64,000 bases of DNA from NCBI GenBank assembly GCA_019339365.1, contig CP079860.1:806001-870000 (forward strand), read 5' to 3'. Position numbers and translations under genes: made by a program. The notes beneath the pieces are model-generated. The model saw only the letters and a program-made list of their open reading frames with translations. It made no database searches and was not told the origin of the DNA. The DNA comes from Vibrio neptunius (lineage in GTDB: Bacteria > Pseudomonadota > Gammaproteobacteria > Enterobacterales > Vibrionaceae). Positions 44,094 to 59,542 of this stretch are shown piece after piece (the first letter of the stretch is position 1; every line of letters begins with the position of its first letter).

Positions 44094-44657
44094 ATGATCA
44101 AAGTGTTTCCTGGAGGCGTATATTGCACTCGAGAAGACGAGCTCATTGCTACGGGGTTAGGTTCGTGTATTGCGGCGTGTATATGGGATGAATATGCCGC
44201 CATAGGAGGGATGAACCACTTTCTGTTGCCTTTCCATAACCACTCTGAAATTAACGCCTGGCGTCCTAATGAGGTGGTGTCTACAGCATCACGCTACGGT
44301 AGCCATGCAATGGAAATGTTAATCAATACTTTGATCACCCATGGTGCTAGACGATCATCCCTCAAAGTGAAATTGTTCGGGGGTGCACAAATGTTAGGTC
44401 GCCACTCTATGATCGGAGAAAAAAATATTGCCTTTATTCTGAATTATGTCGAGCAGGAAGAACTGTCGGTTGTGGCGCAAGACTTAGGAGGCGTCGATCC
44501 GCGCAAAATCATTTTCAACCCACTAACAGGACAAGCGTGGATGAAGCGGATCCCCTACAACGAAATCCATCACTTGCAGCATGAAGAAGATAAGTACGCT
44601 AGTCAATTGGATAAAGAAAGTCACCGCCCTCATGATGATGATGTGGAGCTGTTCTAA
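44094..44657 (+). CDS. cheD: Chemoreceptor glutamine deamidase CheD
   Basis: 187 residues: catalytic Cys in [13 protein letters not shown], His in GGMNHFLLP, and Thr-type residues as in the CheD fold; KLFGGAQML follows. The C-terminus DDDVELF is longer than usual and shares its last four residues with the receptor-like protein downstream. The last base of its stop codon overlaps the cheB ATG. Confidence 0.93.
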
Positions 44658-45693
44658 TGAAAAAAATAAAAGTACTGGTGGTTGATGATTCTCCTGTTTT
44701 TAGAGCGTTATTGGCTCAAATGATTAATGCTGATCCTTTGCTGGACGTTGTCGCTATGGCTGAAGACCCTTATCAGGCGAGGGATCTCATCAAGATTCAC
44801 AACCCAGATGTGCTGACGCTAGATATCGAAATGCCCAAAATGAATGGCGTCCAATTCTTAAAAAATCTGATGCGATTACGCCCAATGCCCGTGGTGATGA
44901 TATCCACTTTAACTCAGCATGGTGCGGAAGCCACATTAGCTGCACTTGAGTTAGGTGCTGTGGACTATTTTCCCAAACCTGCTGTCGATAACACGGGTGA
45001 AATGGTCAATTACAAAGATCAAATTACCGACAAAATCAAGATGGCGGCAGGCGCCAATGTTTTCTTGGATCGCTCTGCACATACCCCTGCACAGAAAGTG
45101 GCCCATACCAGTTTTAAAACCAAAGTTGAGCTGATTGCTATTGGCGCATCTACGGGAGGGACCGAAGCGGTAAGAAATGTGCTGTCAGCCCTTCCTTCTG
45201 GTTTACCCCCGATTGTCATTACCCAGCATATCACGGCGATGTTTAGTGCGTCTTTTGCTCAGCGCCTCAACGATCACAGCGACATTCAGGTACAAGAACT
45301 GTCGGCCAACACCGCGCCTTTAGTCAATGGATGTGCGTATGTCGCTCCAGGCGACAAGCATCTGGTGGTGGTAAAGCGTGGGGCGCACTTGTATTGCCAG
45401 CTCGATGATCGGCCCGCGGTTAATCGTCACAAACCGTCAGTGGATGTGATGTTTGATACGGTGGCAGAAACGGTTGGACAAAACGCGCTTGGCATTATTT
45501 TAACCGGTATGGGACAAGATGGTGCTCGCGGTATGCTCAAAATGCGTCAAGTGGGTGCAATGACCATTGCTCAGGATAAGGCCTCTTCCGTTGTCTGGGG
45601 ATGCCAAGAGTGGCGGTAGAGATGAACGCGGCTCAGAAGGTATTGAGCCTTAAGCAGATACCTCAACAGATATGTGATTGCTTAAAAAAATGA
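44657..45693 (+). CDS. cheB: CheB methylesterase/deamidase (frame interrupted near the end)
   Basis: Receiver domain with Asp56 ([12 protein letters not shown]), then methylesterase with catalytic triad Ser165 (GASTGG), His191 (ITQHITA) and Asp288 (MGQDGA). The open frame stops at 45619 after VVWG; one additional G in the run at 45597-45600 restores [17 protein letters not shown] to a stop at 45693, giving about 345 residues, the normal length and ending. All catalytic residues precede the break. Confidence 0.93.
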
Positions 45694-45726
45694 GACCTAG
45701 AAAGGGCATGACGTCAGGGATGTACT

Positions 45727-46891
45727 ATGAATAAGAAAACTATGACCGCAAAAACTCGCTATAGCTTAGCAATAGGAACGCAGATTGTGTTGTTATCCAT
45801 AGGCATGACTTTGTCTTCATCTATCGCCCATGTCGCCGTGATGGTGTTAGCCGCAGCGGTTCCTTGGCTTGTTTTTCCGCGTACGGCTTCAGTGTCTAAA
45901 TCGCTTGAAAAAGAAAAACAAACATTGACCCAACACGAAAAGGTTGCGACGCATGGTGTCGGTGAAATATTACACAAGATCGCTGCGCAGCTCAATGAAC
46001 CGCTCAGATCATCAACATGGTGTTGTGAATGAATCTGCCGAAACGTTGAATGAGAGTTTTTTTGAGTTGCAGAGCCTAGCGGAAAGCCAAAATGCGATTG
46101 CTGAAGAATTAGTGACAAGCATGATGGGAAATAAAGACAGTGCATACGATATCACTCAGGTTTTACCAAAGACCGAAGGCATTATTCGCCAGTTTGTCGA
46201 TACATTGATTAACGTGTCAGAGAGGAGTATCTCTGCGGTCCATAGCATTCATGATATGTCGGACAAATTGGATACGGTATTTAAATTACTCGCTCAGGTT
46301 CGTGGTCTGTCTGAGCAGACCAACCTCTTGGCGCTGAATGCGGCCATTGAAGCCGCTCGGGCTGGTGAAGCGGGGAGAGGGTTTGCAGTCGTGGCGCAAG
46401 AGGTGAGAAACCTGTCAGTAAAAGCCGAGGAGCTGAATAGCGAAATCGAGAAAGAGATTAATATTGCACAAAACACGGTCAAAGAGGCCAATAAAACGGT
46501 GGGTGAAATGGCCTCGATTGATATGACCGAAGCGATTGAGTCAAAAGAAAAAGTGGATGATATGCTTCAGGGAGTCCAGCAAGCTAACGTCGCGATTGAA
46601 CAAGAAGTTCAGAAAATTAAATCGATTGGCGCCACGCTACATGGGCGTGTCGGGGACGGTATTCGAGCATTACAATTCACAGACATCATTGTCCAGCAAG
46701 GGGATTATGCCAAACACAGTGTGGTATTTTTAGAGCAGATAACAGACTACCTGACGGCTTATGAAAATGGCACCATTGATGAGCAAGCATTTAGTCAAGC
46801 AGTCGCAGAGTTGAAATCCAGTATTGAGCATCGAGGCGCTCCAGCCGCTTCTCAGGAAAATATTGAAGAAGGAGAAGTGGAGCTGTTTTGA
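45727..46891 (+). CDS. Short membrane receptor-like protein with MCP signalling hairpin (frame interrupted)
   Basis: About 388 residues when joined. Two N-terminal spans with almost no periplasmic loop ([39 protein letters not shown]), then a helical region and an MCP tip ([45 protein letters not shown]). No sensor domain. The frame changes near 46005; removing one base gives [21 protein letters not shown]. The C-terminus EEGEVELF matches that of CheD. Equivalent to the receptor-like gene at the end of V. cholerae cluster III. Confidence 0.82.
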
Positions 46892-46954
46892 TGCCCAAAC
46901 ATAACCGATTGGTCGTGGAGGCGTGCTCGCCTTCGTTGTTGAAAAGGAGACATC

Positions 46955-47254
46955 ATGTCGATAGAAACCCAAATAGATTCGCAATCTAAGCAAGTGACCA
47001 TCTCAATTGAAGGGGCTTTTGGCTTCAATTTAGTTCAAGAGTTTCGTCGTTGTTACTCTGACAAGAAGGACTTTCGCTTTACGATAGATTTGCGCAAAGT
47101 CGATTATATTGACAGTGCTGGGCTGGGAATGTTGCTCAATATGCATAACTACCTAGAGCAGGAGGATGGAATGATCCGTATAACTAATACGTTGCCACAG
47201 GTGCGTAAAATACTGACCATTTCTCGTTTTGATAAGAAGTTTCTGATCGAATAG
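46955..47254 (+). CDS. STAS anti-sigma-factor antagonist (HsbA-like)
   Basis: 99 residues: STAS fold with intact phosphorylatable Ser54 in YIDSAGLGMLLNMHNYL. Next gene encodes a receiver-phosphatase-kinase, so this Ser is the likely switch residue. The arrangement matches HsbA/HsbR of Pseudomonas. AAAAGGAG ribosome site precedes the ATG. Confidence 0.88.
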   Translation: MSIETQIDSQSKQVTISIEGAFGFNLVQEFRRCYSDKKDFRFTIDLRKVDYIDSAGLGMLLNMHNYLEQEDGMIRITNTLPQVRKILTISRFDKKFLIE

Positions 47255-47271
47255 CGGTCAAGGAGGGTCGT

Positions 47272-48965
47272 ATGCATGTCATGATAGTTGACGACCACGC
47301 TACCAATCGAGAGCTTTGTCGTTGTATGCTGGGGGAGACGGCCAAGCAAATAACGATGTTCGAAAATGGCGAAGGCGTAGTCGAAGCAATGTCGAAAATG
47401 TCGTCTTTGCCAGATGTTATCTTGCTTGATGTAATGATGCCAGTTAAAGATGGATATACTACGGCAAAGGAGATACATGATGCATTTCCTAAATTGCACA
47501 TCCCAATCATCTTCCTCACGGTTTTAGATGATCACGACTCTTTTGAACGCTGCCTGACTTTGGGTGAAGACTTTATCCCTAAACCTGTCGAGAAAAGTGT
47601 CCTCGTTGCAAAGGTGCAAGCGCACTATAGAACGTTGAAAATGCACAACGAGGTAAAAATTCAACGCGATCAGTTGAGTAAATTTCACGAACAAGTTCGC
47701 TATGATTATGCCATTGCTGAGTCGATTTTCTCCAATCTAATGGATGAAATGAGTTCTCAAGTGAAAAGCATTTATGGCATCAACTATATTTCTACCCCAT
47801 CTACCGTTTTCAACGGCGATTTGATCATTGTGGCAAATCGGCCGCATGGGGGCGTATACGTGATGATCGCTGATGCGACAGGGCATGGATTGCCAGCCGC
47901 TATTTCTGCCATACCTGCGACTCGGGCGTTTTTCTCTATGGCGTCGAAAGGCCTGTCTCTGGGAGAGATTGTACGTGAACTCAATGATGTGCTGGTGCGT
48001 TTCCTTCCTATGGGTATGATGCTGGCGGCCAGTGTTTTTGAAATCCGGGCAAATGGTTTTGAAGTTTCTTGGTGGGGGGAGGCTTACCTGACGGTTATCT
48101 GCTCGACAAAGACGGTTCAATTAGAAGAAAGCTCGTCTCTACACACATGCCTCTAGGTGTGTTAAAGGCACATGAATTCGAAGCCGATCTGGTTCACTTT
48201 AAGATGGAACCCGATCAAAAGATAGTCTGCTATACCGATGGGGTTATTGAAGCGGAAAATGGTGTCGGTGAGCAATACGGACAAGAACGTCTTGAACAAG
48301 CTTTAACGACTGGGCGTGCACTGATTCCAACCTTATTTGAATCCGTACGGAAGTTTGCGAGTCGCAATGTCGGCGATGACTTATCAATACTGGCGATGGA
48401 GTTTCCCATCTCCAACAGCAATGATAAAGTTGCCCAGCAAAACAATTACTATTTGAGTAAAACGCCCGCTCAATCGAAAATGCACTTTCCAGCTGGTGTG
48501 CTTAAATCGGTCACCATCATGAGTGAAGTCAGGCAGTTTCTGACAGGTGTGATGACGGGGCCGCATTTAGATCTGGTCTGCTCCGTTCTGTCTGAGCTTT
48601 TTGCAAATGCGATTGAACATGGGTTGTTGCACCTAGACTCGACAATCAAGGAAGAACCTGATGGCTTCTTTACCTTTTATCAATTGCGTGAAGAAAAACT
48701 TAAAGAACTTTCTGAGGAGTTTTGGGTGACTCTGCTGATTGATTTCAAACCAGAACAAAAACAACTCGTCTTGGAGCTAGAACATAATGGTGCTGGGTTC
48801 GACTACCGTAAGTTGCAGCACAATATTGATAAGTCTTTAACGCATGGACGGGGGGTTGTACTGGCTTCAGAACTCTGTGATTCGTTAAATTATTCGAAAC
48901 AAGGAAAGCGTGTTAAGGCAGTGTACAGTTTAGATGCGAAACACCACTTCCCAAGCTCAGCTTAG
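47272..48965 (+). CDS. Receiver-PP2C phosphatase-HATPase regulator, HsbR-like (frame interrupted)
   Basis: About 564 residues when joined. Receiver with Asp53 (VILLDVMMPVKDG), coiled linker, SpoIIE/RsbU-type PP2C (GDLIIVANRPHGGVYVMIADATGHGLPAAISA; VCYTDGVIEAEN; GDDLSILAMEF) and a C-terminal RsbW-like kinase (VLSELFANAIEHGLL N box; LEHNGAGFD; GRGVVLASELCD). The frame breaks in the G6 run at 48074-48079; one more G gives SWWGGGLPDGYLL. Probably dephosphorylates and phosphorylates the adjacent STAS protein under control of CheA phosphotransfer; inference from family and operon. Confidence 0.9.
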
Positions 48966-52849: not shown

Positions 52850-53547
52850 TTTAGCCCCATTTTTAGTACCACGACCCTTCGTTTGAACCTAAGTGTAATC
52901 AGATTTAGGCTGTCCTAGCCTGACTTTGGTCCCATCCCGAAAACAATCATGGGATAGGTGTCGACCTAAATTGCCCACCTCTCTGTCATTGTTATATTGA
53001 CATTAAAGTTATTAGCTCCTCAACAATGTCATTATCTACCTGAATTAACAAAATTAATGTTCTCGTCACTTTCGTCAAAATATGATTTTTTCGATTGAAA
53101 ATCTCGTTAAAAATAAAAATAACACCTAAATATAGGTATATCATTCTAACCTTTTAGTTAATTTAACTGTTACTTCTATCATCAAAAGGTCATTAAATTT
53201 CGGCTGACAACAAATATCTATATCTATTTTTATAAATAGAATTGAAGTTATCATAACAAATCTAAAAAACGGCTATTAAGTGTTCGGTTATTCTTAAGTT
53301 TGCTAAAAGTATAATTTTCAAGTTGCTGATTTTAAATGGAATAAAAATTCAATCATGGTTTAAATGCCATTCTAATCCCCTTTTTGCAAACCCGATAAAA
53401 CCTCCGTTAATCTGAGCTGAAGATTTAATGGTAAGGAGGTTAATAGTCTCTAATTAATTTAGAGATAAAATCTAGAGCAAAAATAATAATTAAATTAATA
53501 GATAGAAATTAGCAATGGTTACACTTATAAATCATAAGGGATTAATA
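52850..53547. other. Long AT-rich leader ahead of the secreted-protein/Rhs locus
   Basis: About 700 bp, markedly richer in A/T than its surroundings from 52980 onward, with no credible ORF. Near its end CCTCC (53401-53405) and GGAGG (53435-53439) can pair over a 29-base loop, with further short matches (GTTA/TAAG). Probably a foreign-type promoter and leader; the AT bias suggests H-NS silencing, which is inference. Confidence 0.5.
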
Positions 53548-54665
53548 ATGAGCAAGTTAAAAAAGAATATATTCGTCATACTACCGTTAACTTTACTTTC
53601 TGCATCAACGTTTGCCGCCATTAATGGTAGTTATGAGGTTTCATCGATCATGCTAAGTGCGGATCACAATGAAAGCCTTGGCGCTCCGATGCCTTTCTAC
53701 GCCAATGGTAAAATGCAATCTAAGCTCAATGTCACGGTGGCCTTTTCTGATCGTTACGGTTCACCTGTGACGGTAAGCAATGATGAAGTAAAGAATGCAA
53801 TTTCGTTTTATCTGAAAAGCAATGACGTCCAATTAGGTCAGGACAAAGACTGTAGCTATGGGCGAGATTGTTGGGGTTATACCTACAACGAGAATGACTA
53901 CGCCCACCAAATCAGTGGCGCTTATCAGAGTATTAAAAGTCTTCCTAACTCACGCATTCTCTCAACAGCATCAAACAAGCTAACGGTTTGGGTATATGGC
54001 AACGAAACGGCTCAATATCGCCAAGTTTGTGCGCAAATCAAGTTTGATAACGGCAGTGTCTACGATAGCTGTGCTTACCCATATGATGAAAGTGCTCTTT
54101 ACCAAGGTGTGCAACCTAAAGAATACAGCGCTTCTGAGTTTGCTGACATTGGCACAGGCGAAACCGTTTGGAAAGATGAAGGTGACGGTTTCTATTTCGA
54201 CAAAGCTGAAGTCCGTAACTTCTACATCACACCGACGGACACCTCTATCACTATGACCAAAGTTGCCATGGATAATTGGGAAGAATCGAACAGCGACAAA
54301 GTATTCCTGCAAGACGAGTGGCTTGGCTGCTACAGCGATTGTCCAAACGGATTCCGCTCGGTGAAAGGCTATATCTTTGAACCCGGTCGAGAGCGCACGG
54401 TTTCAGATCAATACGTTTGGAATAGTGCAGCGGGTGAGGGCCGTACAGCTACATGGCGTGTTAACCAAAAACTGCGTTCGGTGACATTGAGCCAGCTTCT
54501 TTTTCAGGCAACACATCAATTAACGATTCTCAGAAAGAATATCGTTTCACCGCTTATGACCAGTACGGAAACAAAGCACGTCTAAAACTGACTTACCCTG
54601 AAAGCCAGTTTAGCGGTGGCGGTCAGGAATGGGACTACACCCAATGGAACCTAGTTAACCAATAA
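53548..54665 (+). CDS. Secreted protein of the Rhs locus (frame interrupted)
   Basis: About 372 residues when joined. ATG 53548 (AAGGG upstream) opens a Sec signal (MSKLKKNIFVILPLTLLSASTFAA) and a mature domain rich in Tyr, Asp and Asn with paired Cys (DCSYGRDCWGY; VCAQIKFDNGSVYDSC; WLGCYSDCPNG). The frame breaks at the T5 run 54500-54504; a one-base change continues FSGNTSINDSQKEYRFTAYDQYGNKARLKLTYP to a stop at 54665. I do not recognise the family. Adjacent to the Rhs gene (66 bp) and probably in one operon. Confidence 0.75.
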
Positions 54666-54730: not shown

Positions 54731-57700
54731 ATGTCTAATTGGACTTCAAATGCATTTAATTTTGATAGTTATTGTTCAGGGGGCGTAGACCAAAGAACAA
54801 GAAGCTACTCCTATCAAATTCTTTTAGGATCCTTAGTCGGCAATTGGCTAAAAGGCCCTAACCTTGATATCGCTCTGCAGTTTTCACCCTACTCGCGGGA
54901 TAACCTAGGTTTCGGCATGGGTTGGCAGTTAAACATTCCAAGATACGATCTTAAAAATAAACAACTGCATCTAGCGAATGGGCAGTCTTACCGAGCTGAA
55001 TTGGGCGCGAACTACAAACTTGATCTTCGCTATAAGAAATTGCTCGACTTCTCAGTGAAAGGTGACGCTAGTGGCTATGAGATTACCTATCGAAATGGTC
55101 GCAAAGACATCTTAGATGATCACGGTAATCTGATTAAAGTCATCCAAAGTGATGGCCATGCTCTGCATTTTTCCTGGTTAAACATAGGTCAAGAAAAACG
55201 TCTGAACAAAGTCTGGGATGATCGTACATCAGAAAGCCAACCACTTTTGCTTATCGTTCACGTTGATCCGAGCAGAGTGAATGTTTTTACGAATATCGGC
55301 AGTGCTCACGAAGCATATTTCAGACTTATCCTAAACAATAACAATCTCGTTCAATGCCAATTATCTGAAGATGCGGGTAGTTATGACTTTGGCTACAAAA
55401 CGATAGGGTCCTATAACCTAATTCAGAGTGTTACCCACCCTTGTGGAATGCTTGAGCAACTGGCTTATGACGCCAATGGAATAAGAGTAAACACCAACAC
55501 TTACCTCCCAGCGGTCACTTCTCATCGTGTTTTAACGAGAAACTCCCCCATTATTGAGACTCACTATGGCAGCGTGAATTCCGATAGCCGAAACTTTATG
55601 GGCTACAACGTGCCTGGCGGTAGTTTAGGTGAAGGGGTTGATAACTTACTTGAACGTGGAATCGAATACTCATACCGGGTACAAAAAGTGGAAAGCGGTA
55701 CGATCAAGACCATTCAAACCTATAACCAATTCCACTTGTTGGTTGAAGAAGCTCGCCTGATAAACGACAAAATTGTCCACCTCAAGAAGCTTGGCTATCC
55801 AGCTCGTGACAACGAGGATTTTGCCAATCAGCCTGCTCAATACGCGCTCATCAATCAAGAAGAGCAAACTTGGTCATCGGGTGAAGATAGTCATCTGCAA
55901 ACTCGTCATTGGCAATACGATCAGTACGGTAACATGTTGTCTTTTATCGATGAAAACAACATTGCTGAGTATTATGAGTACTATTCATCACAAGGTGAGC
56001 CAGGCTGTCCAGCCTCTCCTTCTGGCATGGTGAACTTTGTCAAATCTCGTACTCTGAGCAATGGTTCTGAACAACGTAAGATTTCTTATGAGTACGGAGA
56101 GGTTGCAGGTCTCAACAATCAAAAGGATGTCGTGCTGCGCTTGGAAAATGCTCATGATCGCTACCAAAGCCATTACCGCTACCACGAGAATAACAGTGAG
56201 ACATTTTCTTTGGGTCGACTAGCTTCCATCCAAAACGATTTCATTCATGCAGAGGGTACCTATGCCAAGACTTCAAGCTATCACTATGTTTTGGAGGGTG
56301 ACACGGTTGAAGAACATGAGGAACTGGTGTGTCACGACAATACAAAAATTAATGTGGTTGTTAGCCACTATCTCGATATTGGCGAAATTGCTCATCATGT
56401 AGATGCGGATGGTGTTCGTTGTAGTTTTGAATATGACTCGTTACGTCGGACAAAAAGCGAACGCATTGATGGTAGTGCTGCACGTTCATACCAATATCTA
56501 GTGGATACCACCCAAGCTAGGCAAACCATGGTGCTCACAGACTGCAAGGGCAATTTGTGCGAACAGAGTTGGGATGGGCAAGGCAGAGAGTTAGAAGCGA
56601 AGCTCGGCACTACAACCACTTGGAAAAAAGAGTATGACGAATTCGGACGCTTAGCCAGCAAGAGCACTTTTGACGATCTGCCCGATAAAAAGGCGCGTAC
56701 GATTTCTGTCACTCAGACAGAAACGTATGAATACGATGATTGGGGGCAGATTAAAGCAACTACGCTCCCGAATGGTAATCGTCATATCGCGTTTAACAAT
56801 CTAGCCAGCCGCCAAAAAACACAAGGCATTGAGGGGTTAGCGCTAACAGTCAGTGATTTGAACAACTGGGGGTTAGAAGATAGAAAGCAACAAGGTGATC
56901 GCGTTTGGCATTATGAATACGATGCTTGGGGCCGACTTAAGAAAGAAACCGATCCAGCTAGTCAATCGAAAAGCTATCAATACGACAAGTTTGATCGTGC
57001 CGTTCATATTACTCAAGCTAACCATGTGACTCAGCAAATTACCTACGCGGTACATACCGATCAAACGCAAGTCACTCAGTTAAAAATAGGTTCACAGATC
57101 GTTGGGCAGCGTGATCTTGATGGTTTGGGGCGACCTCTTGAACTTCGTCGGGGTGCCAGTAGCCAAGCCTCTTTAGCTTGGACCTATGCCGATAGCAGTA
57201 ATATTCCGCAGACAGAAACCAGCTTATCCGCTCCAACAAGACGTTTTAGTCGCGATGCACAGTTAGGTGTTCTCAACGAGAAACAGTCTGGAGACCAGTC
57301 AACAACATACCAATATGATCCCGTCTCCGGCCTACCAACTGGCAGTGAAGATAGCAACGGGAGTCGAAGCTCGATTACATATTCTGTGACGGGTTTACCT
57401 GAGTTTGAGCAGCATGACGGCAACATCCGCCAGTACATTTACTCAAAAGGTGGTGTGATTACCTCGATTCAAAGCACGCGAGACAGACGTCAGTTCGGTT
57501 ATGATGAGCTTGGCCGATTAGTCAAATTAAGTACAGATAAAGCTACTGTTGAATACGAATATGATCAATTTGATCGTATCACTTTAGAGCAATTGACATC
57601 GGGTAGTCACACTCAAATTACCGAGATTGAATGGGATGAATACAGTCGCGAAGTGAACCGTGCTGTCGCACTCAACGACGTTTACATCTTTGAGCAGTCT

Positions 57701-58423
57701 CAAGACTACAACGAACTTGGTTTACTTCGCTGCCGAGAAAAAGAGTGTGCAACCTTGGGCAATGTAACGGAGACGTACACCTATGATTCACTCTCACAAC
57801 TTAAGCGCGTTGAGTTTTTAGGTACCGGCCCACTTAGCGATTGGGGTGAACCAATCTTATTCCTTGAATGGGACTACGATGACCTCGGTAATATGCTGAC
57901 TCAGCGTTGTGTCACCAACGATTCTCAAGACCTCGCAGACTACTACTACGAAGCAGATGATCCAACACAGTTAACACGCATCACCCACACGCACCCTCAG
58001 CTTCCGAGCCAAACCGTACTCAAGTATGACCTGAATGGCAACATGATTGAGGATGCAGAAGGGCGAGCGCTAAGTTACGACCACTTCGACAAACTTACCA
58101 GCGTGCTGTCTGATAACACGGAATGGATGTACACCTACGACAGCAATGATCGTCTCATTGGGCAGTACTCTGATACCGATAGTCGCCAGTTTGAGTATTT
58201 GTGGAGTGACATCGCGTCTATTGAAGACAATGGCCGCGTAACCCACTACATCTACGATGATGGTGTGCCGAAATGGTCAGAACAAGACTCTGTTGTCTCT
58301 ATGATAGCCACCGATCAAAACGGTTCTGTCATTGCTTCTAACACCGCGGGTCAAACGGATGCAATGTACCGCTACTCTCCATATGGTCAACGCGAACAGG
58401 TGGTAAATAACAATGAGCAATAA
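54731..58423 (+). CDS. Rhs/YD-repeat protein, large N-terminal part
   Basis: 1230 residues with many YD repeats (YEYDDWGQIKATTLPNGN; YEYDAWGRLKKETDPASQ; YQYDKFDRAVHI; YDLNGNMIEDAEGRALSYDHFDKL; YRYSPYGQ). N-terminal 150 residues resemble the beta-propeller/TcdB-like start of RHS proteins (LQFSPYSRDNLGFGMGWQLN). No signal peptide or PAAR domain. It ends just after SPYGQ, where intact Rhs proteins continue into the LGFNGE...DPSGH core. That core is encoded by the next gene, which overlaps by 11 bases in another frame. YD repeats normally build a cage around the C-terminal toxin. Confidence 0.92.
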   Translation: MSNWTSNAFNFDSYCSGGVDQRTRSYSYQILLGSLVGNWLKGPNLDIALQFSPYSRDNLGFGMGWQLNIPRYDLKNKQLHLANGQSYRAELGANYKLDLRYKKLLDFSVKGDASGYEITYRNGRKDILDDHGNLIKVIQSDGHALHFSWLNIGQEKRLNKVWDDRTSESQPLLLIVHVDPSRVNVFTNIGSAHEAYFRLILNNNNLVQCQLSEDAGSYDFGYKTIGSYNLIQSVTHPCGMLEQLAYDANGIRVNTNTYLPAVTSHRVLTRNSPIIETHYGSVNSDSRNFMGYNVPGGSLGEGVDNLLERGIEYSYRVQKVESGTIKTIQTYNQFHLLVEEARLINDKIVHLKKLGYPARDNEDFANQPAQYALINQEEQTWSSGEDSHLQTRHWQYDQYGNMLSFIDENNIAEYYEYYSSQGEPGCPASPSGMVNFVKSRTLSNGSEQRKISYEYGEVAGLNNQKDVVLRLENAHDRYQSHYRYHENNSETFSLGRLASIQNDFIHAEGTYAKTSSYHYVLEGDTVEEHEELVCHDNTKINVVVSHYLDIGEIAHHVDADGVRCSFEYDSLRRTKSERIDGSAARSYQYLVDTTQARQTMVLTDCKGNLCEQSWDGQGRELEAKLGTTTTWKKEYDEFGRLASKSTFDDLPDKKARTISVTQTETYEYDDWGQIKATTLPNGNRHIAFNNLASRQKTQGIEGLALTVSDLNNWGLEDRKQQGDRVWHYEYDAWGRLKKETDPASQSKSYQYDKFDRAVHITQANHVTQQITYAVHTDQTQVTQLKIGSQIVGQRDLDGLGRPLELRRGASSQASLAWTYADSSNIPQTETSLSAPTRRFSRDAQLGVLNEKQSGDQSTTYQYDPVSGLPTGSEDSNGSRSSITYSVTGLPEFEQHDGNIRQYIYSKGGVITSIQSTRDRRQFGYDELGRLVKLSTDKATVEYEYDQFDRITLEQLTSGSHTQITEIEWDEYSREVNRAVALNDVYIFEQSQDYNELGLLRCREKECATLGNVTETYTYDSLSQLKRVEFLGTGPLSDWGEPILFLEWDYDDLGNMLTQRCVTNDSQDLADYYYEADDPTQLTRITHTHPQLPSQTVLKYDLNGNMIEDAEGRALSYDHFDKLTSVLSDNTEWMYTYDSNDRLIGQYSDTDSRQFEYLWSDIASIEDNGRVTHYIYDDGVPKWSEQDSVVSMIATDQNGSVIASNTAGQTDAMYRYSPYGQREQVVNNNEQ

Positions 58424-59542
58424 AGATTCAGTATTCATTACTCCGCTTAATCGTCGTGAGTTTCTGATTAAAATTGGCCAAACCAGTGCGGTGGCTGGAG
58501 GCATTTCACTACTGCCAACCTCTGTGCGTCTTGCAATGGCGCAATCTATGACGGTCTCGCCATCGCACTTAGGCTTTAACGGCGAATGGCTGGACCCGGT
58601 ACTCGAAGGTTACCACTTAGGCCAAGGCTATCGAGTCTACCAACCTAAGTTAATGCGTTTTAACGCCCCAGACAGTTTAGCGCCATTTAGTGAGGGCGTT
58701 CATAATGCTTATGTCTACTGTCATAACGATCCACTCAACTTTACGGACCCAAGTGGTCATTTGAATATCAGTAAGATTTTGTTTGGTGCGTTCGGCGTTA
58801 TAGCGGGTATTGTGGGGATTGCACTGGCTGCTCCGACCGGAGGCTCAAGTTTGGTTCTTGCTGCTGGCATCATTGGCGGTATTGCGGGAATGACCAGTGG
58901 TGCGCTCCAGATTGCATCAGGCATCATTGATGATGGCGACATCTCTCGTAAACTGGATATCGCTACTATTCCATTTGATATTATTGGCGTGGTCAGTGGT
59001 GGCTACTCAGCTTTCAAGTCAGTACAAAACTTACGTTGGGTAAGAGCTGGCGGTGCTTTGGAAGATGTCACTCAGCCGGGGCTAGGCTCTCGGCTGTGGA
59101 ACAAGATTAGCCCGTCAGCTGAGTACAACCTTGACTGGGCGCGTAAAACCAATCCTGCGATGAGAATTGGCAGTTCAGAAGGTCAAGTTATTGTCACCAA
59201 AATGGTACAAGGCGGCAAAACCATGACTTATACGCCCCCCCGATTCACGGTGGTTTTACTAAGATTCTGCTGGGTCAAGTCAAAGTAGGCGCTCGTGGTT
59301 ATACCATTTATCAAGGCATTATGACAGCTCGCTCTATTGGCAGTATTGGCTGGTCGACGGTCAAAACTATCCCCGGAAGACTAGACAGCGAGAAATCATC
59401 GAGCGACAGTATGGTAACAGAGGGTAGAAGTTCAAACCCTGAAGCGAGAAAGACTCAGCTATATTCTCTGGAAGAAACCCGCCAGCGCATAAAATATGGC
59501 AGTGATGTGCAAAGAATGATACGCCAATTGCCTCTATCCTAA
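58413..59542 (+). CDS. Rhs core and C-terminal toxin-like part with a Tat signal peptide (frame interrupted)
   Basis: About 376 residues when joined. Residues 1-44 form a twin-arginine signal: NRREFLIKIG (Arg14-Arg15), hydrophobic stretch to about 40, cleavage likely after AMA. Residues 52-116 are the Rhs-associated core (LGFNGEWLDPVLEGYHLGQGYRVYQPKLMRFNAPDSLAPF ... DPLNFTDPSGH). Residues 117 onward are a variable tip with two glycine-rich hydrophobic stretches (GVIAGIVGIALAAPTGG; AAGIIGGIAGMTSGALQIASGII). The frame breaks at the C7 run 59235-59241; one C more continues IHGGFTKILLGQVKVG to 59542. The ATG has AGGTGG upstream, and an in-frame stop just before it shows the split is genuine. Toxin family not recognised. 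Confidence 0.85.

Follow-up and report, generated by a model that had tools for sequence, protein, structure and literature searches.

A conserved split Rhs protein pair with a Tat-type leader and a Sec-type companion in Vibrio and related bacteria

A stretch of 64,000 nucleotides from Vibrio neptunius (GenBank assembly GCA_019339365.1, contig CP079860.1; G000:C2:806001-870000, hereafter the window), which lies on one of the two contigs of a 5.36-Mb genome, contains three consecutive genes, all on the + strand of its open reading frame (ORF) list, referred to here as genes A, B, and C. Gene B encodes a shell of YD/Rhs repeats, gene C encodes a short protein, the tip, in which a leader of the twin-arginine translocation (Tat) type precedes the end of an Rhs core, and gene A encodes a companion with a signal of the general secretory (Sec) type. 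The comparison of homologous loci gives good support to the view that this architecture, with its split cage, Tat-type leader, and Sec-type companion, is a real and conserved variant of the Rhs toxins. We further propose, with a probability of roughly 0.6, that the three genes form a module of a signal-less shell, a Tat-tagged toxin plug, and a Sec-type companion, in which the shell and plug would be exported together as a closed cage.

The split Rhs chain and its leader

In the window, the YD ORF of gene B terminates in ...YRYSPYGQREQVVNNNEQ*, its C-terminal end being SPYGQREQVVNNNEQ; the chain thus stops after the SPYGQ motif. The ATG of gene C lies at 58413, 11 nt inside gene B, and the repeats and the core are thus carried by two chains encoded by separate genes, not by one. 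The two arginines of gene C are residues 14–15 and are followed by an uncharged stretch, with AMA ending at residue 43; LGFNG begins at residue 53, and DPSGH ends at residue 116. This leader fits the motif of Tat substrates (SRRxFLK-type, then an uncharged stretch, near the N-terminus), and a tatC gene is present in the genome. A preliminary description of this DNA had proposed that an Rhs chain is split at the core, after SPYGQ, with a Tat-type leader on the toxin half and no signal on the shell. The split proved to be real, and both the leader (RR or KR in 61/61 tips) and the signal-less shell proved to be conserved.

The leader was first aligned in 39 rows from 23 genomes, which were chosen from 47 BLAST hits as short ORFs and not by the presence of RR; the other eight hits were leaderless ORFs of at least 505 amino acids (L002 and L025 to L031). 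Both arginines were invariant in the 39 rows, and most other leader columns varied. A later set comprised distinct core-bearing ORFs scoring at least 60 bits and lying outside the named loci L048–L127. It contained 67 ORFs, 61 of them short and six of them long, one-chain relatives, none of which (0/6) had the leader. Among the short cores, 59 carried RR and two carried KR (SKRDFM and SKRNFM), which is a working variant of the Tat motif, and in all 61 the motif was followed by 12 or more uncharged residues. The preliminary description had held that homologues lacking a conserved RR motif would speak against it; no such lack was seen in this set. In a chance control on part of the loci, a Tat-like start (RR followed by at least 12 uncharged residues) occurred in 4 of 179 other ORFs of at least 250 amino acids. 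An ATG was found within 30 codons before the motif in 56/61 tips, the start codons being predicted. Phenylalanine occupied position +3 after the motif in 10 of 11 cluster representatives, the eleventh being a false match from Pseudomonas, and a loose AxA pattern matched all 11, including the false one, and therefore says little. Three Pseudomonas ORFs (L098, L112, and L118) that a loose pattern flagged as RR were false matches by eye; L098 is included in the 57 of the chance control and among the 11 representatives.

The ratio of nonsynonymous to synonymous substitution rates (dN/dS) was calculated among 14 close copies (91 pairs), using only pairs with an unsaturated dS > 0.2. Median dN/dS was 0.050 for the leader (47 pairs), 0.034 from RR to AMA (50 pairs), 0.008 for the core (9 pairs), and 0.027 after the core (20 pairs). 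As judged from these ratios, the leader is under strong purifying selection.

In all 15 close copies examined, the shell reading frame has a stop codon of its own close to where the tip begins. An in-frame TAA (58404–58406) precedes the gene C ATG in the window, with two codons between them, and the same arrangement was seen in only 2/15 copies, namely, the window and the same-species copy; the remaining 13 have a tip frame that continues open for 25–35 codons upstream. The preliminary description had cited this TAA and the AGGTGG ribosome site upstream of the ATG as evidence against a simple frameshift. Both sites are indeed present in the window, but because the tip frame is open upstream in 13/15 close members, the argument from the TAA is local to this species.

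The span given in the same description, 58395..59542, is not a single frame. The gene C ORF ends at 59288, and the rest, a small ORF at 59321–59542, continues in another frame. In a second genome of the same species (G100), gene C is intact, with 376 amino acids, and its C-terminus equals that of the small ORF, indicating that the window gene C is broken near its 3' end. The window gene A is also broken near its 3' end, whereas gene A of G100 extends to the usual C-terminus. An alignment of 6586 bases from the two genomes showed 98.7% identity, genes A and C each containing a single-base indel, and intact copies of both genes occur in other genomes. These indels may reflect sequencing error or decay, and the split is untouched by them. 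Elsewhere in the window (44657–48965), inspection by eye revealed a CheB-like ORF that ends early, at 45619, and response-regulator/phosphatase-like ORFs (47272–48156 and 48069–48965) that overlap in different frames; taken with the single-base indels noted above, these features hint at frameshift errors in the assembly.

Table 1. Coordinates of the module in the window
Feature	Position	Strand	Basis or remark
Gene A: Sec-signal protein of unknown family, NGxMQ motif	53515..54585	+	ORF list, hydropathy, alignment
Gene B: YD/Rhs-repeat shell, 1230 amino acids, no signal peptide seen	54731..58423	+	PF05593, TIGR01643
Shine-Dalgarno-like AGGTGG	58398..58403	+	Direct sequence reading; 9 nt, then ATG of gene C
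Gene C (tip): Tat-type leader, Rhs core end, hydrophobic segment, start of C-terminal domain	58413..59288	+	291 amino acids, shortened
Tat-type leader of gene C, residues 1–43	58413..58541	+	RR at 58452–58457, AMA end at 58541
Rhs core end LGFNGE...DPSGH of gene C	58569..58760	+	Alignment; Asp pair assigned by homology
Remainder of gene C C-terminal domain, different frame	59321..59542	+	C-terminus equal to that of the intact same-species protein

Shell, plug, and companion

Gene B matched PF05593 RHS_repeat (E = 1e-26) and TIGR01643 (E = 6.9e-24). RHS_repeat was its sole Pfam match at E 0.1, with no SpvB or TcdB domain, and PAAR was absent from genes B and C in the Pfam and NCBIfam scans. The best hydropathy of 12 residues at the N-terminus ranged from 0.56 to 1.82 in 34 shell ORFs, and neither the same-species shell nor the other shells had a strongly hydrophobic N-terminal stretch. 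When homologous split pairs were sought, as the preliminary description had suggested, a YD shell gene was found to adjoin 48 of the 61 distinct tips of Vibrio and its relatives, lying directly upstream in 43 and directly downstream in 5. The pair also stays together where the gene order is changed to A-C-B. Three loci (L161, L190, and L195) have two tips and one shell each, as expected if the toxins are exchangeable. In L195, three tandem copies of gene A lie between tip and shell, an arrangement that resembles a stock of exchangeable parts.

Genes A, B, and C occur with the same 11-nt overlap on pHLB-202008 of V. parahaemolyticus and pLMB143 of V. campbellii, which are complete conjugative plasmids whose Vibrio hosts came from samples of shrimp and fish. 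Their annotations give B as 'RHS repeat protein' and C as 'RHS repeat-associated core domain-containing protein'. The pLMB143 record also lists a winged-helix protein at a position like that of a divergent gene upstream of the module in V. jasicida (L048:1151-1813), which, by eye, encodes a ToxR/CadC-like DNA-binding protein that includes a membrane segment.

Gene C matched the NCBIfam Rhs-associated core (TIGR03696, E = 2.5e-17), and the Pfam scan of the window gene C gave no match. Two aspartates of its core, residues 87 and 112, lie by homology at the positions of the aspartyl autoprotease pair, and both columns are invariant in the 39 aligned rows. The PDB matches of the core profile were Rhs and teneurin-like chains, including 8h8a, 7q97, and 8cp6 (Tse5), and the profile aligned to residues 1091–1151 of the 1152-residue chain 8h8a. 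In PMC8765631, the conserved C-terminal region of RhsA is described as spiralling into the cocoon and sealing one end, with the toxin inside, and as an aspartyl autoprotease that frees the toxin within the cocoon. Because this region is larger than the core of gene C (~65 residues), most of it would lie in gene B. The gene C core corresponds to the last part of a region inside the RhsA cocoon, so a shell-dependent plug is likelier than a free folded protein, and the outer folded tip envisaged in the preliminary description does not agree with the placement of this region in RhsA.

In four one-chain relatives (L154, L050, L055, and L160), 9–12 residues separate PYG from GFNG or AYNG. After predicted signal cleavage, the shell would have a tail of 11 residues and the plug a head of 10 residues at the same place. 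B and the processed gene C product thus resemble two pieces of a single cage that has been severed within one loop, and the Tat leader appears to sit where the chain would enter the shell. A tree of the cores (132 rows, 69 columns), which used every second of 105 leaderless short cores, gave no clear resolution, with 11 changes of the Tat label, and is as compatible with one origin of the leader as with more than one.

Gene A, on which the preliminary description was silent, was searched for in whole genomes with a profile built from the loci fetched for tips. At E 1e-8, it was present in 22 of the 227 genomes of the genus, all 22 of which are among the 23 with a Tat tip (Fisher p = 1e-29, a value that ignores kinship). 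In 21 aligned rows, excluding the window, the invariant residues were N53, M56, Q57, C161, C175, D339, Y341, and G342; the intact homologues thus share an N-G-x-M-Q motif, two invariant cysteines, and a C-terminal D-x-Y-G. The best 12-residue hydropathy was 1.74–2.93 in 26 ORFs just upstream of shells, in agreement with a Sec-type N-terminus; these ORFs were picked by place and length, not by family, and a 27th, itself a tip, was omitted. No convincing Pfam family was found for gene A, two of the 21 members having one weak match each (E = 0.011 and 0.052), and no convincing solved structure, with one weak PDB match (E = 0.014). An AlphaFold model from three rows had a predicted local distance difference test score (pLDDT) of 31.8, too poor for a fold search. 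The idea that gene A encodes a toxin-specific immunity protein was not adopted, because one gene A family appears to accompany tips of different toxin families. On a Yersinia enterocolitica plasmid (L160), a leaderless one-chain RHS core protein is followed by an 'Ig-like domain-containing protein', which is perhaps a parallel to gene A.

Eighteen tips of relatives were scanned for toxin families, and four (4/18) had one above the curated cut-off. Two had Tox-HDC (E = 7.5e-17 and 1.2e-12), one had Stv (E = 1.7e-11), and one was Scabin-like (E = 2.7e-9), the same stretch also passing the Pertussis_S1 model (E = 4.2e-5); we take the latter two to be ADP-ribosyltransferase families. Matches to PARP, Tox-ART-HYD1, and Peptidase C80 were below the cut-off, and the C-terminus of the window gene C matched no toxin family in Pfam or NCBIfam. 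On these matches, the C-terminal toxin domains differ between tips, as in Rhs polymorphic toxins.

At the level of the genus, 61/227 genomes had some gene C match at E 1e-3, and 23/227 had tips of this type. In the family, 109/296 genomes had any match at 1e-3. Matches at 1e-15 were found in 11/295 genomes of the order, six of which, from two other families, have tips, and in 1/369 genomes of the class, this one being the own genome, with no further match. For the family, order, and class, the genomes searched were samples of larger groups, with no more than 12–15 candidates scored in each, so that these counts may include misses. Besides Vibrio, the sources of the 61 distinct tips are four genera of the same family and two further families within the order. 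The weaker matches in the genus and family (E ~1e-11 to 1e-3) mostly start at the core and include some short ORFs; as a minority of them was fetched, leaders may occur among these more distant Rhs cores. The named loci L048–L127, mostly from Pseudomonas, represent 80 of 459 relatives, and 11 of the 80 had no match to the core pattern of the script. Within this sample, and under a somewhat different rule, a YD gene lay just upstream of 2/96 leaderless short cores. The four Tat tips in these loci, all from Vibrio, had a YD gene upstream in three cases and downstream in one (L058). A Pseudomonas locus (L066) has seven short Rhs-core ORFs on one strand, without Tat leaders.

Proposed export and competing explanations

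In the model that we favor, B and C would be made together, as their 11-nt overlap suggests, and the C core would insert into the B shell in the manner of the C-terminal end of a one-chain Rhs protein. The toxin would be enclosed before it could act on the producer, and the core would cleave it off inside. The Tat leader would stay outside and draw the closed cage through the inner membrane, B travelling as a hitchhiker, and signal peptidase would cut C after AMA. The gene A product would be delivered by Sec and would encounter the cage either in the periplasm or at the cell surface, where it may cap the cage, bind a receptor, or assist release. A passage of the outer membrane via the type II secretion system would be a guess; the secretin gene GspD is present in the genome. 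Tat moves folded proteins, so a free toxin would be active in the producer, and its enclosure in B before export would solve this problem and at the same time carry out the signal-less B. The unsuitability of folded cytoplasmic toxins for Tat is, in PMC12691689, the likely reason given for the absence of Tat signals from one toxin class. According to PMC7170923, the Rhs protein PA2684 was still cleaved in Escherichia coli when given a Tat signal, an observation that fits the model without proving export. Assembly or release in the periplasm, as the preliminary description proposed, is possible, but cytoplasmic assembly of the cage followed by co-export seems to fit better. The more far-reaching proposal, that the shell rides Tat on the signal of the plug, a Sec protein completes the particle outside, and one shell serves several interchangeable plugs, which together would constitute a new export route, is tentative, and we would put it at slightly under even odds.

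Several observations weigh against the favored model. A cage of such size would be a very large cargo for Tat. Thirteen of the 61 tips have no directly adjacent YD gene; five of them have one in the same fetched locus (L161, L190, L195, L035, and L166), and the remaining eight come from five genomes, four of which have a YD gene elsewhere. The fifth (G106) lacks both a YD gene at E 1e-20 and gene A. No toxin family was matched even weakly in 11/18 scanned tips, and the AlphaFold model of the tip was poor (24 rows, mean pLDDT 45.6), so that no fold backs the plug or toxin reading. The aspartate pair is spaced by 25 residues here, compared with 22 in RhsA (D1324 and D1346). As for the leader, Pfam TAT_signal matched 3/39 leader-core pieces at E 0.1, that of the window not among them, and 5/18 full tips, one of them above the cut-off. 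In five of the 61 tips (L045, L046, L047, L182, and L188), there is no ATG within 30 codons before the motif: the nearest is farther off or absent, and a GTG or TTG lies 4–21 codons away, so the N-terminal place of the leader in these tips is doubtful, depending as it would on a GTG or TTG start.

The tips without an adjacent shell gene, the case of G106, and the absence of a signal from the shell itself would all be accounted for if the tip were exported by Tat alone or with a helper, and the shell stayed in the cytoplasm as a guard or left by other means, the two meeting later or never. We regard such separate export as unlikely, although deserving of serious attention, given that the shell gene adjoins most tips (48/61) in either order, that the C-terminal region of RhsA sits inside the cocoon (PMC8765631), and that, by the argument made in PMC12691689, a folded toxin that is not enclosed would put the producer at risk. 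The few TAT_signal matches and the five doubtful start codons would also suit a leader that anchors the protein in the membrane, or a Sec-type signal in which RR occurs by chance. An invariant RR is not required by a Sec signal, however, and the near-universal RR (59/61, with KR in 2/61) and the phenylalanine at +3 in 10/11 cluster representatives make this improbable. Finally, the single-base indels that distinguish the window genes A and C from the same-species copy could suggest that sequencing error or a recent frameshift split an ordinary one-chain Rhs protein and that the leader arose by chance. The broken parts, however, lie near the 3' ends, away from the split; the split and leader recur in 61 distinct proteins from three bacterial families; and two complete plasmid records show two genes with the same 11-nt overlap. 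This origin of the split is already refuted by the homologues, and we give it virtually no weight.

Relation to known systems and significance

The core wording of gene C (DSLSPFG-GG-N-Y-YC-GDP-N-DPSGH) is what we take to be the TccC type, and Xenorhabdus and Photorhabdus are among the non-Vibrio relatives in the matches listed. In the Tc toxins (Photorhabdus TcdB2-TccC3 and YenBC), TcB and TcC are likewise two chains that form one Rhs cocoon, and the TcC chain carries an aspartyl protease and a toxin (PMC8765631). The present pair differs from the Tc toxins in that the cut lies right at the core, so that almost no shell repeats remain in the second chain, and in that this chain bears a Tat-type leader. 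No ORF of the window is long enough for TcA (the largest other ORF has 1106 amino acids), and the TcA profile PF18276 matched neither the own genome nor any control genome. Membership of the Tc family was not adopted, because gene B has no SpvB or TcdB domain. An SpvB match elsewhere in the genome belongs to a separate locus outside the window (G000:C2:326304-332260), where an SpvB fragment in a 166-amino-acid frame is followed, ~6 kb further on, by a 2238-amino-acid frame with an Rhs core; this may be another Rhs or Tc-like locus, one whose N-terminus is broken.

The Rhs effectors of the type VI secretion system (RhsA, Tse5, VP1517, and TseI) likewise have an Rhs cage with a C-terminal autoprotease and toxin. 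RhsA is one chain with an N-terminal plug and PAAR, whereas two chains, a Tat-type leader, and no PAAR match are found here. The short Rhs-core proteins of Pseudomonas, among the matches listed, are likewise mostly 260–400 amino acids long, with an LGFNGE...DPSGH core, but they have no RR leader, and in most of them the final repeat strand (TDQQRSVL...YTPYG) belongs to the same chain. Tat hitchhiker complexes of the hydrogenase type are enzyme complexes, whereas the cargo proposed here would be a toxin cage. The carriage of a signal-less partner by the Tat signal of another chain was reportedly described by Rodrigue et al. in 1999.

A literature search covering few subscription papers and no preprints found no title or beginning of an abstract on Tat-exported Rhs proteins. 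The words 'Tat' and 'twin-arginine' do not occur in the first 300,000 of the 357,715 characters of a broad survey of polymorphic toxins and the ways in which they are exported (PMC3482391). A 2025 paper on one toxin class reported that Tat signals were absent and offered an explanation for this (PMC12691689), and the Tat signal mentioned in PMC3008741 belongs to a phospholipase. A split Rhs cage with a Tat-tagged plug and a Sec-type companion is not described in the literature searched.

The conserved combination of a toxin chain carrying a Tat-type signal with a separate cage chain makes the export of an enclosed toxin testable, and the naturally split cage allows the plug to be studied apart from the shell. 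If the model is true, enclosure in a cage would solve the problem that folded, active toxins pose for Tat, and the module would represent a new export route for polymorphic toxins.

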